A model generated the notes under the pieces. That model saw nothing but the letters and a program-made list of their open reading frames with translations, did no database searches and had not been told where the DNA came from. A stretch of DNA of 64,000 nt from Asaia siamensis (GTDB taxonomy: Bacteria > Pseudomonadota > Alphaproteobacteria > Acetobacterales > Acetobacteraceae): NCBI RefSeq assembly GCF_014635085.1, contig NZ_BMCH01000002.1, forward strand, positions 186,001 through 250,000. Reading direction: 5' to 3'. Each line of letters begins with the position of its first letter. Positions within the stretch are counted from its first letter, which is position 1. Both the position numbers and the translations under genes were made by a program. Shown one piece after another: positions 11,761 to 36,564 of this stretch.

Positions 11761-14700
11761 ATGACTACAACGATCAGTGGCGTATGGAGCGCGGTTCTCG
11801 TAAACGGCAAGACCGTGTACCAAAGCGGTGCATCCGTTATTGACGGGCCGGTCTCTCTGGGGGGCAATTCTCCGCTTCTCTATGTCACGAGCGGCGCGAT
11901 AGTTACAGGCCTCACGTCACCCTTGTCCGGTTATTCGGCGGAGTGGGGAAGCGCCATTGTCCAGAGTGGCGGGACCCTGCAGAACTCAACGCTGCAGACC
12001 GTTGTCGCGATCATAAGTTCCGGTGGTGTACTGCAAGACAACACCCTGAATCATACGGGTGATAAAATATCCGCAGGCGGGATAGTCAGGAACAACGTCA
12101 AATATAATGGTGGAGATCTCTCGGCTGCACAGGGTGCACAGATTAATAACCTGTCGATCAGCCAGGGTAGTTCGCTTCTGAGTGGTGCTATTTGGTCCGG
12201 CGGCACCGTGCTGTCGGGTGGAATCGTCAGCGCGACAAGTAATAGTCTTGTCACCAAAGCTTTGGTTTCGAGCGGCGGACAAATCCAGATCCTTTCAGGA
12301 AGCACCGCGCAAGGTGTGCTGACCTCGGGAACGGGGCTCGGAAATGCCGTAAACGGTATTCAGGGATCGCTCATCCTGAGTGCCGGCGGCACAAGCTTTA
12401 ATGCCGTAATCCAGGGCGGGTATATGGCAGTGCAAGGGACAGGCGCTCTGTCTCAGAGTGCTTATATCACCTCAAATGGCTGGCAAGATGTAGGCTCGAA
12501 CAATAATGGCGCGACGGGCGGCGGCACTGCATCCGCCACAACGCTGATCAATGGTGGTGCGCAATTCGTCAAAGGGGGGACTGCGGTTGACACTTATGTG
12601 TCTTCTGGCGGTTTGCAGGAAGTCTCGGCAGGAGGGCAGGCCTCTGGCGGAACAGTTTTCTCAAATGGAAAACTGCAAGTCTATGCGGGTGGCACCGGCA
12701 CTAACAATGTGGTTCTTGCAGGCGGGCAGGCGAACATATGGGGTGTTGCTCAGGCTTCCAATGGTTTGGCATCCGGACTCACAATCCAGAATGGCGGTTC
12801 TGCGGTCAGTCTGAGTGGCGGAAGACTGACCGCTCTCTCTTTGATGAGCGGGGGGCGGGCTATTGTTTCGTCAGGCGGTTCTATCGACCAGTCTGTCCTC
12901 TCCGCAGGTGGGCAGGTGCGGATTCAGTCTGGCGGCACGGCATCCCAGCTGACAGCGTTGGGCACCGGTTGGTGGAGTTATAGCGCGGGTGCCGTTTTGG
13001 TAGGGTCTGGTGGCACTGCGCTCAACACTGTCTTGTCGGGTGCCTATCAGGCGGTCCAGGGGCAGGGCGCCTATACGGAGAATACGCTGGTCACGAATAG
13101 TGGCTGGCAGGATGTCGGCCTCAATTCATTTGATGGATTGTATGGCGGCGGTATCGCCTCAGGCTCTGTTCTTGTGAGCGGAGGCAAGCAGTTTGTCAGT
13201 GGCGGTACGGCCCTGACAACCATGATCTCTGCAGGTGGCACCCAGACGGTCATGCTGCGAGGCGTGACCTCGGGCACGATTACGGCTTCTGGCGGTACGA
13301 TGGCTGTGCTTTCTGGTGGCACAGCCTTCAATGCCAGTGCAGTGACCGGTGCGGTGGCGACGGTGTCGCAAGGCGGCACGGCTGCTGCTTCCGGAGGTGT
13401 TGCCTCAGGAATTGTCATCCTGAGCGGTGGGTCAGCTCTTGGTCTTGGCAATGGCCGGATGACGGGCTTTACAGTGCAGGGCGGTGGCCAGGCTGTTGTC
13501 TCATCCGGTGGCACCATGGATAACAGTGTGTTGTCCCTGGGCGGACAGGCGCGGATTCAGTCCGGCGGCACGGCATCACAGCTGACAGCCATAGGTAATG
13601 GCTGGTGGGGTACTGGCGCTGGTGCCGTTTTGGTAGGGTCTGGGGGCACTGCGCTCAACACTGTCTTGTCGGGTGCCTATCAGGCGGTCCAGGGGCAGGG
13701 CGCCTATACGGAAAATACGCTGGTCACGAATAGTGGCTGGCAGGATGTCGGCCTCAATTCATTTGACGGATTGTATGGCGGCGGTATCGCCTCAGGCTCT
13801 GTCCTTGTGAGCGGAGGCAAGCAGTTTGTCAGTGGCGGTACGGCCCTGACCACCATGATCTCTGCAGGTGGCACCCAGACGGTCATGTATGGTGGTGTTG
13901 TGTCAGGTTCTGTCGTGGCCTCAGCAGGCTTCATGACAGTTCTCTCAGGAGGGACTGGTTACAACGCTAATGCGTTTTCGGGTGGGCGTGTGGTTGTCGC
14001 GAGTGGGGGCACTCTTTCTGGCGGTATCATAGCATCGGGAGCAACTCTGAGCGGCTCCGCAGGTGCTCTTTGGGGAGGTAATCTCAAGGTTGGAGGATCT
14101 ATCTCCGGAGGCAGCATTGTCTCAAAGGGGGTCGCAGAAATTTCGTCGGGGGGAACAGCGCGTGATTTGTTCGTTGCGTCTGGGGGCTCGCTTCAGGTCG
14201 ACGCCGGGGGGACGCTGACTGGTCTCGCCAATCTTGCCGCCGGTGGGATTGCAACACTCGACGCGAGTGCTGGGGGAACCGTCAATCTTGGCGGAAACGG
14301 ATTCAGTCGTCTCACACTGACTGGAACGACTAGCCCGTCTTCGATTATTTCGGGCTTCAACGGTACGTCGCCCGGCTCTTCGGACCAGATCGTACTACGC
14401 GATGTGCCCAAGTCGGATATACTCGGGCTAACATATCCTGACGCCGATCATGTCAAATTTCTCCTGACGGGTAATCGCTCCCTTGTCCTGAATATTCCAG
14501 GCGTGAAAAATTTTGGGTTCGATCTCTCAGAAGGATCCGGAAATTCGACTGTTTTTTCCGTATGCTTCCTGTCTGGCACGATGATTCGTACCCCTGATGG
14601 AGAGCGCGCGATTGAGACGTTGTCCGCAGGTGATGCCGTTCATGTTTATCACAAAGGCTGCGTCGAAACCCAGAACGTCATTTGGGTGGGATATCGTTCG

Positions 14701-15567
14701 ATCACGGAAGAGGATAGCGCCAGCTACGACATTACGGATTATCCGGTGCGTATTGAGGCTGAAGCGTTTGGGGGCGGGATGCCTTACAAGGACCTGCTGG
14801 TAACCCCAGAGCATTGCGTTTTCATAGCTGGCAACCTTGTTCCGGTTCGTATGCTCGTGAATGGCCGGAGCATACGGCACGATACGAGCCTGAAAACTTA
14901 TAGTTATTACCATATCGAAACAGACTGCCATTCAGTAGTCATGGCTGATGGGCTGCTCTGTGAAAGTTATCTGGACTCGGGAAACCGGCATGATCTCGCA
15001 GCTCGATCATGGGTGGATGCGCCGCTGTCCGTCGTTTCCGGCATGTCGGGAAAACATCGGATGGCTGCACCGCTCTGCGTATCACGAGCCTTCGTCGAGC
15101 CGATCTGGAAAGGGCTGGCTCGTCGCGCCGGACAAGTCTGCGACGCGAGAGACATAAGGCACATCGATCCGATGTTCCATCTGTCTACGGAAGATGGTCA
15201 TATCATGGAGCCTCTCCGCGTGGCTGGTGATCGTTATATCTTCCAGATTCCAGGGCATTATGGGGCCGTTTATCTCTGCTCTCGTGCTGCGCGTCCGAGT
15301 GATGCGGTCGGACCCTATGTTGATGATCGTCGGCAGCTAGGCGTCCTGATTGGGGCAGTAACCCTCTACGATCCCTCCTCGACCCAAGAAATCGACGTCC
15401 GTGATTTCCTTCATGCAGCGCGGGGATGGCATGCCGCGGAGAACGGTCAGTTAAGATGGACGAGCGGCAGGGCGTTTTTGCCACTGGACACGCTCAAGGA
15501 TGCGGGGATGCGTATCCTGGCTGTACAGATCGTTGCGGGTGGTCCCTACCATTCTGCCACTCACTGA
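11761..15567 (+). CDS. Large SGG-repeat protein with C-terminal Hint domain
   Basis: A 1268-residue protein. Residues 1 to about 870 are short beta-helix-type repeats built on SGG, SAGGT and GGTA motifs, like AIDA-type adhesin passengers. Within this part a module of about 210 residues occurs three times (marked by GWQDV), two copies being almost identical. Residue Cys935 opens a Hedgehog/intein-type Hint_2 domain (CFLSGTMIRTPDGERAI), with the TxxH motif at Thr1015-His1018 (VTPEHC). A further C-terminal region has SRAARPSDAVGPYVDDRRQLGV and RWTSGRAFLPL. No signal peptide and no beta-barrel are visible, and no terminal His-Asn splice motif is seen after the Hint domain. N-S acyl shift self-cleavage is therefore plausible and full splicing is not. 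The ATG has only a weak ribosome-binding site. Confidence 0.85.
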   Translation: MTTTISGVWSAVLVNGKTVYQSGASVIDGPVSLGGNSPLLYVTSGAIVTGLTSPLSGYSAEWGSAIVQSGGTLQNSTLQTVVAIISSGGVLQDNTLNHTGDKISAGGIVRNNVKYNGGDLSAAQGAQINNLSISQGSSLLSGAIWSGGTVLSGGIVSATSNSLVTKALVSSGGQIQILSGSTAQGVLTSGTGLGNAVNGIQGSLILSAGGTSFNAVIQGGYMAVQGTGALSQSAYITSNGWQDVGSNNNGATGGGTASATTLINGGAQFVKGGTAVDTYVSSGGLQEVSAGGQASGGTVFSNGKLQVYAGGTGTNNVVLAGGQANIWGVAQASNGLASGLTIQNGGSAVSLSGGRLTALSLMSGGRAIVSSGGSIDQSVLSAGGQVRIQSGGTASQLTALGTGWWSYSAGAVLVGSGGTALNTVLSGAYQAVQGQGAYTENTLVTNSGWQDVGLNSFDGLYGGGIASGSVLVSGGKQFVSGGTALTTMISAGGTQTVMLRGVTSGTITASGGTMAVLSGGTAFNASAVTGAVATVSQGGTAAASGGVASGIVILSGGSALGLGNGRMTGFTVQGGGQAVVSSGGTMDNSVLSLGGQARIQSGGTASQLTAIGNGWWGTGAGAVLVGSGGTALNTVLSGAYQAVQGQGAYTENTLVTNSGWQDVGLNSFDGLYGGGIASGSVLVSGGKQFVSGGTALTTMISAGGTQTVMYGGVVSGSVVASAGFMTVLSGGTGYNANAFSGGRVVVASGGTLSGGIIASGATLSGSAGALWGGNLKVGGSISGGSIVSKGVAEISSGGTARDLFVASGGSLQVDAGGTLTGLANLAAGGIATLDASAGGTVNLGGNGFSRLTLTGTTSPSSIISGFNGTSPGSSDQIVLRDVPKSDILGLTYPDADHVKFLLTGNRSLVLNIPGVKNFGFDLSEGSGNSTVFSVCFLSGTMIRTPDGERAIETLSAGDAVHVYHKGCVETQNVIWVGYRSITEEDSASYDITDYPVRIEAEAFGGGMPYKDLLVTPEHCVFIAGNLVPVRMLVNGRSIRHDTSLKTYSYYHIETDCHSVVMADGLLCESYLDSGNRHDLAARSWVDAPLSVVSGMSGKHRMAAPLCVSRAFVEPIWKGLARRAGQVCDARDIRHIDPMFHLSTEDGHIMEPLRVAGDRYIFQIPGHYGAVYLCSRAARPSDAVGPYVDDRRQLGVLIGAVTLYDPSSTQEIDVRDFLHAARGWHAAENGQLRWTSGRAFLPLDTLKDAGMRILAVQIVAGGPYHSATH
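12988..13254 (+). repeat. Internal 267-bp direct repeat, copy 1
   Basis: This segment of the Hint gene recurs 633 bp downstream with five mismatches that I counted by eye. It encodes GAVLVGSGGTALNTVLSG through GGTQTVM. The weaker similarity extends upstream of 12988 (IQSGGTASQLTA in both). Confidence 0.9.
13621..13887 (+). repeat. Internal 267-bp direct repeat, copy 2
   Basis: Second copy of the segment at 12988-13254, offset exactly 633 bp (211 codons), so recombination between the copies would delete or add a module in frame. The mismatches are single bases and nearly all silent. Confidence 0.9.
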
Positions 15568-34302: not shown

Positions 34303-36564
34303 GTGGGCTTGTCCATTTTCTTCCAAAGACGTAATGTTACAGTTACGAATGGCTCGACCCGTTATGTTCCCGCAGGGCGTGTAACATCGGGTGACGTTGT
34401 CTATGGATTGAATGGCGGCACGGACTGCCCATCGGTGGATCTGGCGTCGGGAGGAACCATCTCCGGGGCCACGGCTCTGTCAGGTGGCGTCGTGGCTGCA
34501 GCGGCCAATGGGACCACTTTTGGCGGGACTGCACTTGAAAGTGGTTCTTTTGCCGCCCTGAATCAGGGTGTGGTCGTAAGCGCGACGATCACCGCCCGTG
34601 CCGGTCTGGCAGTGGGCAATCTCTCTGGCTATCAGGGTACGCCGGCCTTGGCGATCGCTCCGCATGTCATGAGCGACGGTCATGCCCTGGCCGGCGGCGG
34701 CTTCACGGTCAAGGGGCAGAGCTTTTCTGGCTCCGGGGTGATTTCAGGTGGCACTTTCGATGTCGGCTCCACTGAAAATCTGGCCAGTGGTGGAACCGAT
34801 GACAGCAGCTTTTTCGGCGGTACCCAGATTGTTTCCGCAGGTGCGCTGGCGCTCAGAGGCATTTTCAGCGCCGGGGTGCAGCTGATCAATGGCGGGTCTG
34901 CCTCCAGCTCGGTCGTGTCGGCGGGTGGCACCGTTGTCGTGGGGCAGGGTGGACGTGCTTCAACGATGACAGTCGGCAGTGGTGGGACGGCGGTCGTGAA
35001 TGCTGGCGGCGTCTCGATCAACCAGAATGTTCTCGCCCGAGGGGTATCAATCGTTTCCGCTGGCGGTACGCTTAGCGGGGCGACAATTGCTTCGGGGGGC
35101 TCCGGCATTGTCCAGTCCGGTGGCGTCGTCAGCGGTGCAACGATACTTTCCGGTGGCACGCAGGATGTGCGGGCCGGTGCGACTGTCCAGAGCGCCGTTG
35201 TCGCGGCTGGGGGTTCCATGATTCTCGCTTCGGGCGCGACGGTCGCCAATCTTCAGGTAGCTGCGGCACCATCCGCTTCTGAAAAGGGCGGCAAGCTGGT
35301 GGTCACGCCCGGTGCCGTGATGAGTAATGTCAGTGTCGGCAGGCGCGGCGCCATCGATATCGAGGGCCTCGCCTACAAACCGGGCGGCTCGGTCTCGTTC
35401 GAGAACGGCATACTCAAGGTTACCTACGCAGACGGATCGACCTGGTCGACTCCGCTGAGCGGTTCCTACAGGAAAAACGATTTCCACCTCGAATCCGATG
35501 GCGATGGCAGCACGATCGTCATGTACGACAAGTGCTTTCTCGCGGGCACGATGATCCGCACGCCGTTTGGCGAGTGTCCGGTCGAGATGCTCGCCGTGGG
35601 CGATCTTGTCTCGACAGCCACTGATTTGCCCGGGGCCACCAGTCGGATCACATGGATCGGCTCGGCGGAAATCATCGTCGAACCCTCAAGGAGCGACGAT
35701 CACGCGGGCTATCCTGTGTGTTTCAGGGCAGGGGCTATCGGCCCTCATTCTCCTGACCGCGATCTTTTCATCACGCCCGAGCACTGCGTATTCATGAATG
35801 GCGGGCTTGTGCCTGCGCGTATGCTCGTCAACGGGGCAAGCATCGATTACGACCGCAGCCGCACGCGTTTTACGATCTATCATTTCAGAACAGAGGCGCA
35901 TGCGGTGGTGTGGTCCAACAACATGGCCACCGAGACCCTTCTGGATGATGGAGAACTGCATGGGCTGGAGCCCGATGCGGCCTCGCGTCATGTGCAGCCT
36001 GCCTCTCTGCCTCAGGGTCGCGTTGCGCCGTTGCGGGTTGAGCGAGCATTCGTCGAGCCTCTGCATCGTGCCCTGATGGCGCGGGGCAAGGCGCATCTTG
36101 AGGCATTGCAGGCGGAGACCCCCGGCGCAGAGGGTGAGGGTATTGCCTCCTCCATACTTCAGGACCCTGACCTGCATATTGTCTCGAATGAGGGGCATGT
36201 CGTTCGCCCGTCGCGCAGCACGGAAGATATGGTCATTTTCCACGTGCCTGCCGAATGGGAAGAGGTGCGTATCCGGTCACGGGCAGCGCGGCCCTTCGAT
36301 GCGGAAGGGCCTTTCATTGACGATCGGCGGTCTCTCGGGGTGCTGATTGGTGATATCCATCTCTGGGACAGTCATGGGGCCACGCAGCTTGACACCCATC
36401 TCAGCGATGCGTCGCTGGAGGGGTGGAATAATATCGAAGCTGTTCCGATGCGGTGGACCACAGGAGATGCGCGCCTGCCGCTCGGAAGACGTCGGGTCGG
36501 GTCGCCGGGGGTTCTCGGTATAAAAATCCGTGCAACTGCCGCTTATGAGCGTATCGCCTGCTGA
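34303..36564 (+). CDS. Second SGG-repeat protein with Hint domain
   Basis: A protein of up to 753 residues, paralogous to the one at 11761. Residues 1 to about 330 are SGG/SAGGT beta-helix repeats (for example VVSAGGTVVVGQGG). Cys411 begins the Hint_2 domain (CFLAGTMIRTPFGECPV), with Thr491-xx-His494 in ITPEHC. The C-terminal 200 residues carry VERAFVEPLHRALMARG, SRAARPFDAEGPFIDDRRSLGVLIG and RWTTGDARLPLG, each matched in the first protein. No signal peptide, barrel or His-Asn splice end is seen. The start is unusual: GTG at 34303 has no ribosome-binding site, whereas TTG at 34309 follows GAGG at the right distance. The repeat region is much shorter than in the paralogue. Confidence 0.83.
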   Translation: MGLSIFFQRRNVTVTNGSTRYVPAGRVTSGDVVYGLNGGTDCPSVDLASGGTISGATALSGGVVAAAANGTTFGGTALESGSFAALNQGVVVSATITARAGLAVGNLSGYQGTPALAIAPHVMSDGHALAGGGFTVKGQSFSGSGVISGGTFDVGSTENLASGGTDDSSFFGGTQIVSAGALALRGIFSAGVQLINGGSASSSVVSAGGTVVVGQGGRASTMTVGSGGTAVVNAGGVSINQNVLARGVSIVSAGGTLSGATIASGGSGIVQSGGVVSGATILSGGTQDVRAGATVQSAVVAAGGSMILASGATVANLQVAAAPSASEKGGKLVVTPGAVMSNVSVGRRGAIDIEGLAYKPGGSVSFENGILKVTYADGSTWSTPLSGSYRKNDFHLESDGDGSTIVMYDKCFLAGTMIRTPFGECPVEMLAVGDLVSTATDLPGATSRITWIGSAEIIVEPSRSDDHAGYPVCFRAGAIGPHSPDRDLFITPEHCVFMNGGLVPARMLVNGASIDYDRSRTRFTIYHFRTEAHAVVWSNNMATETLLDDGELHGLEPDAASRHVQPASLPQGRVAPLRVERAFVEPLHRALMARGKAHLEALQAETPGAEGEGIASSILQDPDLHIVSNEGHVVRPSRSTEDMVIFHVPAEWEEVRIRSRAARPFDAEGPFIDDRRSLGVLIGDIHLWDSHGATQLDTHLSDASLEGWNNIEAVPMRWTTGDARLPLGRRRVGSPGVLGIKIRATAAYERIAC

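Follow-up and report, generated by a model that had tools for sequence, protein, structure and literature searches.

What would a long, repetitive protein that ends in a Hint domain do, how would it leave the cell, and why are two of its modules nearly identical? These questions are raised by a gene of Asaia siamensis whose reading frame starts at ATG 11761, the first possible start, in the window, by which we mean the whole 64,000-nucleotide stretch analysed here, part of contig C2 of a 3.3 Mb genome (Table 1). Asaia are acetic acid bacteria and include mosquito symbionts used for paratransgenesis; the closest named relatives of the source genome are Asaia sp. W19 and Asaia platycodi. The product of the gene is probably a long repetitive surface protein with a coat of sugars.

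By its sequence matches, the passenger that makes up most of this protein is an AIDA/TibA-like strand-loop-strand sequence. AIDA repeats were matched in a Pfam scan, and an NCBIfam scan matched TIGR04415, which models the strand-loop-strand repeats targeted by O-heptosyltransferases, in four stretches (53.3 bits against a cut-off of 30), as well as the AIDA-I model over a long stretch that scores under its cut-off. Of 10 paralogues put through NCBIfam, the 1268-residue protein alone reached 30 bits with TIGR04415. The initial annotation had described three modules of about 210 residues in this Hint protein, and their homology is not a matter of chance: modules 1 and 2 align with a score of 512 and modules 2 and 3 with 676, whereas shuffled sequences scored 138 at best. 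Autocorrelation of the passenger shows one strong long period, at lag 211 (0.306; lag 19, at 0.184, is the only other one listed). Identity between modules 2 and 3 is 66% along their whole length. The near-identical segment reported at a spacing of exactly 633 bp was recovered as the best 267-bp window at that lag, with exactly five mismatches, all of them synonymous.

Table 1. Features discussed in the text; positions are those of the window unless another locus is named.
Feature	Residues	Position	Strand	Remarks
Whole gene: AIDA-like passenger, Hint_2 and C-terminal beta-rich domain		11761..15567	+	1268 aa
Passenger	1-934	11761..14562	+	Strand-loop-strand repeats rich in Gly, Ser and Thr; 127 Ser; Cys and Sec-type signal absent
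Module 1	about 202-409	12364..12987	+	50% identical to module 2
Module 2	about 410-620	12988..13620	+	Lag-633 comparison, module alignment
Module 3	about 621-825	13621..14235	+	Lag-633 comparison, module alignment
Gene-conversion tract, module 2 copy		12988..13254	+	Lag-633 comparison
Gene-conversion tract, module 3 copy		13621..13887	+	98.1% identical, 5 synonymous differences
Hint_2 domain	934-1072	14560..14976	+	Cys935 at junction; Pfam scan
C-terminal domain	about 1084-1268	15010..15564	+	No Pfam match, predicted beta-rich
Second Hint and C-terminal-domain gene of the window		34303..36564	+	753 aa, same tail, AIDA-like passenger
Operon HlyB-HlyD-Sel1-TPR/GT2-orf306-GT4		L105 2982-13806, own contig C3		Type I secretion with glycosyltransferases

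The near-identity of this segment had been attributed to recent duplication or gene conversion, and recombination between the modules had been put forward as a route to variation in length. We compared the gene with its rpsI-linked orthologues in W19 and A. platycodi. The W19 orthologue aligns end to end at 62% and likewise has a period of 211 codons; that of A. platycodi, in a draft sequence with single-base gaps, has a period of 632 bp. Three modules are thus common to all three species, which share roughly 60-85% DNA identity, and the spacing is exactly 633 bp in two of them; the duplication is therefore old, predating the species, and recent duplication is rejected. Within the tract, modules 2 and 3 are 98.1% identical in the source genome, 96.6% in A. 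platycodi and 78.3% in W19, and identity between orthologues (66-85%) lies below that of same-species module pairs; in segments further out the reverse mostly holds, orthologues being more alike than modules of one species. At quartet-informative sites, pairing by species outnumbers pairing by position 32:0, 47:1 and 42:1 inside the tract, whereas in the 168 bp from 12700 the same ratios are 2:34, 7:17 and 5:15. The 120 bp directly upstream of the tract are mixed, leaning towards species pairing (6:4, 14:1, 15:2), which indicates that the ends of the tract differ between lineages. With the same tract homogenised within each species, the aligned sequences explain the near-identity by concerted gene conversion that acts on an old duplication and recurs at one place per lineage. 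An assembly artefact is unlikely, since the homogenised tract recurs in three independent assemblies.

Direct repeats that are almost identical and spaced exactly in frame are a substrate for recombination, and a surface protein whose length varies through changes in module number could be built on them; but the three species keep three modules, with homogenisation having taken place without a change of length, so that the proposed route to length variation is rejected at the species level and the idea as a whole appears highly improbable. The sole change of passenger length among the three is a 57-bp gap in W19, directly behind the module-3 tract. The modules are a case of solenoid repeats that evolve in concert while their number stays the same. 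The A. platycodi orthologue (L028 7995-11830) is broken by several single-base gaps, and the adjoining ORF, too, falls short of its counterpart in W19, which makes errors of the draft sequence a likelier cause than decay into a pseudogene.

The Hint_2 domain (PF13403) scores 129.4 bits against a gathering cut-off of 28.4 and covers model positions 1-145 of 147. Its residues read as the initial annotation had it, with Cys935, Thr1015-xx-His1018 and no splice-end His-Asn, a pair that is absent from the entire 1268-residue protein; since the passenger is devoid of cysteine, Cys935 is the first of the chain. In an AlphaFold model computed from 14 sequences, the Hint part mostly has pLDDT 85-92, and the predicted fold is closest to the Clostridium thermocellum bacterial intein-like (BIL) domain 2lwy (Z 12.9, 2.2 A over 119 residues), with Hedgehog 1at0 at Z 10.3 in an alignment that begins at model residue 9, that is Cys935, and chain residue 258, that is Hedgehog Cys258. 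Z values of 10-13 to inteins, BILs and Hedgehog for this predicted model, together with the invariance of Cys935, Thr1015 and His1018, place the domain in the HINT superfamily. The definitions of intein and BIL chemistry (PMC7664689, PMC7765530) exclude two of its classes: a class 1 intein needs a C-terminal His-Asn and a +1 nucleophile, and a BIL of type A needs the conserved C-terminal His-Asn, whereas here the position of the C-terminal intein motif is held by Glu1068-Ser1069 (Glu-Ser/Thr among relatives, the Glu invariant). With the end motif replaced in this way, Asn cyclisation and splicing are excluded, and the residues that are present would allow an N-S acyl shift at Cys935 followed by N-terminal cleavage.

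The motif pattern of BIL type B, intein-like motifs minus the C-terminal one, appears to fit this domain. As in BILs of type B (types A and B are defined in PMC7765530), an N-terminal Cys and a TxxH occur with no C-terminal His-Asn, within large, non-conserved proteins of secreted type, and the predicted fold is closest to solved BILs; unlike them, the domain belongs to the Pfam family Hint_2 and is followed by a constant domain undescribed for BILs, and its activity here is putative. It may also be that no cleavage takes place in vivo, and that Hint and C-terminal domain form a folded module for export or anchoring to which the passenger stays attached. We regard this as unlikely: the wide variation among relatives of the residue that precedes the cysteine (V, K, A, G, T, P or Q) speaks for it, but all 34 divergent tails keep Cys935, Thr1015 and His1018, the residues of the N-S shift site, which would be hard to explain if no chemistry were involved. 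His1051, His1057 and Glu1068 are likewise the same in every one of the 34. In a relative from a viral collection (L081 583-1668), a run of Asp-Gly repeats is inserted in frame early in Hint, near the N-terminal Cys.

The 185 residues that follow Hint have no Pfam match. They are modelled as a beta-rich domain with moderate confidence (pLDDT 70), and their structural matches are weak, the best being Hikeshi at Z 7.4, too low a value to rely on, with glycosidase beta-sandwiches also found. In the source genome this domain occurs solely downstream of Hint (11 of 11), in 11 proteins whose last 335 residues are held in common at 36-47% identity and whose passengers differ. Other Asaia genomes have similar sets of Hint-tail proteins, tails 40-44% identical are encoded on plasmids of Acetobacter, Gluconobacter, Neokomagataea and Commensalibacter, and Hint_2 was found in 47 of 60 Acetobacteraceae genomes, with up to 22 copies per genome. 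Proteins of this family and tail have been known in acetic acid bacteria by annotation alone, and a paper of 2025 lists a mutated member as being of unknown function (PMC11999647). In one genome (G003) the C-terminal domain stands alone, as a copy of 160 aa (L110 7204-7686, E 3.8e-30) at a distance of about 5 kb from rpsI; this is apparently what is left of a Hint gene that was lost.

How would such proteins be exported? A classical (type Va) autotransporter is rejected: the source genome holds no autotransporter barrel (PF03797), the 1268-residue protein has no Pfam barrel, and a Kyte-Doolittle window found no strongly hydrophobic N-terminal stretch, as a Sec-type signal would require, in any of the 11 paralogues. 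One HlyD in the genome scores above the type I cut-off, with HlyB and glycosyltransferases adjoining, and this operon is kept family-wide with no substrate gene beside it. Co-occurrence of HlyD itself with Hint_2 is uninformative, HlyD being over its cut-off in 58 of 60 genomes, and the operon-specific marker orf306, which has a marginal Pfam match only, was used instead. It is present in 38 Hint-bearing genomes and missing from 9, and present in 5 Hint-free genomes and missing from 8 (p 0.005, uncorrected for phylogeny). Since the alternatives are absent and gene linkage points the same way, we infer that the 1268-residue protein is exported by type I secretion through a putative C-terminal signal recognised by HlyB-HlyD. 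In Asaia bogorensis, a published list of released proteins names no Hint protein, which counts against this picture, and two 'outer membrane proteins' of the secretome are predicted as T1SS substrates (PMC12502724); some Hint genes bear that same name.

Linkage also ties the family to glycosylation. The source genome encodes three TibC-type heptosyltransferases (BAHT; 543-579 bits against a cut-off of 200), two of them beside Hint genes. On contig C1, a fatty-acyl-AMP ligase-type gene, two BAHT genes and a glycosyltransferase gene stand divergent to two Hint genes and an AMP-binding enzyme gene, an order kept in Asaia and in another genus (G016). BAHT adjoins Hint in three further genera (G038, G045 and G064), and G048 has in a row a 1455-aa Hint protein, an AMP-binding enzyme, a 2209-aa PKS, a fatty-acyl-AMP ligase-type enzyme and BAHT (L108 19-16217). 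A Hint gene lies in 5 of 20 BAHT regions, against 1.1 expected (p about 0.003). All 15 genomes with BAHT over the cut-off have Hint_2, and BAHT is missing from all 13 genomes that lack Hint_2 (p 0.026, uncorrected for phylogeny); the same 15 all carry orf306 (p 0.006, uncorrected for shared ancestry), and in G061 BAHT is the next gene of the HlyB-HlyD operon, overlapping GT4, its last gene. Neither partner is obligatory, given the 5 Hint-free genomes with the operon marker, the 9 Hint-bearing genomes that lack it and the 32 Hint-bearing genomes without BAHT.

We suggest, at about even confidence, that these proteins are adhesins that receive heptose, leave the cell by type I secretion and are cut at Cys935 through BIL-B- or Hedgehog-like chemistry. 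Cleavage, glycosylation, the export route and adhesion are here deduced from families, residues and gene linkage; what is shown is the anatomy, with its domain content, its invariant catalytic residues and the Hint fold of the model, together with the missing barrel and Sec-type signal, the linkage of the genes and the conversion tract. Each protein would be built of a variable AIDA-like strand-loop-strand passenger and a constant 335-residue tail of Hint_2 and the beta-rich domain, and in the cytosol the passenger would be O-heptosylated on serine by a TibC/Aah-type heptosyltransferase. Export would follow through the glycosyltransferase-associated type I system, with the signal carried by the tail. 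In the Hint domain an N-S acyl shift would then form a thioester at Cys935, which water or another nucleophile would attack to free the passenger from the tail, with no splicing. In the 1268-residue protein the repeats of modules 2 and 3 are held alike by gene conversion, and module number stays constant.

The fate of the thioester could also be a different one. In Hedgehog, Hog is followed by a sterol-recognition region and cholesterol is transferred, and the present protein resembles it in the alignment from the catalytic cysteine, in having a second domain directly behind Hint and in having no splicing motif; it differs in that this second domain is larger and predicted to be beta-rich. A Hedgehog-like ligation, in which a lipid or small nucleophile bound by the C-terminal domain resolves the Cys935 thioester and anchors the passenger covalently, would suit the succession of Hint and conserved domain in 11 of 11 proteins, the missing Asn that splicing would need for its completion, the failure to find a barrel or other surface anchor, and the fatty-acyl-AMP ligase-type and AMP-binding genes within the conserved BAHT-Hint cluster. 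We nevertheless hold it to be quite unlikely, because the weak matches of the beta-rich domain include none that points to lipid binding, and because the ligase-type gene adjoins BAHT also in regions of 19.5 kb with no Hint (G037 and G040), so that its role may rather lie in glycan or lipid chemistry. A broader scheme, to which we give only a slim chance, would make the whole a Hedgehog-like surface system, with heptosylated solenoid adhesins exported by type I secretion and covalently attached through the Cys935 thioester to a lipid or other nucleophile that the C-terminal domain chooses and the fatty-acyl-AMP ligase-type gene makes or loads.

AIDA-I and TibA, the self-associating autotransporters served by the Aah and TibC heptosyltransferases of the BAHT type (eLife 2014, PMC4358343), are the obvious comparison. 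The 1268-residue protein is like them in a passenger that matches the TIGR04415, AIDA and AIDA-I models and in a genome whose TibC-type enzymes are linked to paralogues of its gene; it is unlike them in having neither a beta-barrel, of which there is none genome-wide, nor a Sec-type signal, and in a C-terminus made of Hint and a new domain. A search of the open literature found no barrel-less BAHT/Hint/type I system. Gene linkage gives the Hint family of acetic acid bacteria a testable pathway of TibC-type glycosylation, type I export and self-processing, the last in place of an autotransporter barrel. If this pathway is true, BAHT glycosylation is separated from type V secretion, and a secreted adhesin offers a bacterial setting for studying the N-terminal cleavage of Hint, be its outcome release or attachment.

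Finally, we note that several other Asaia genomes have Hint genes whose distance from rpsI is similar, which suggests that the second Hint gene of the window has a positional orthologue in them.
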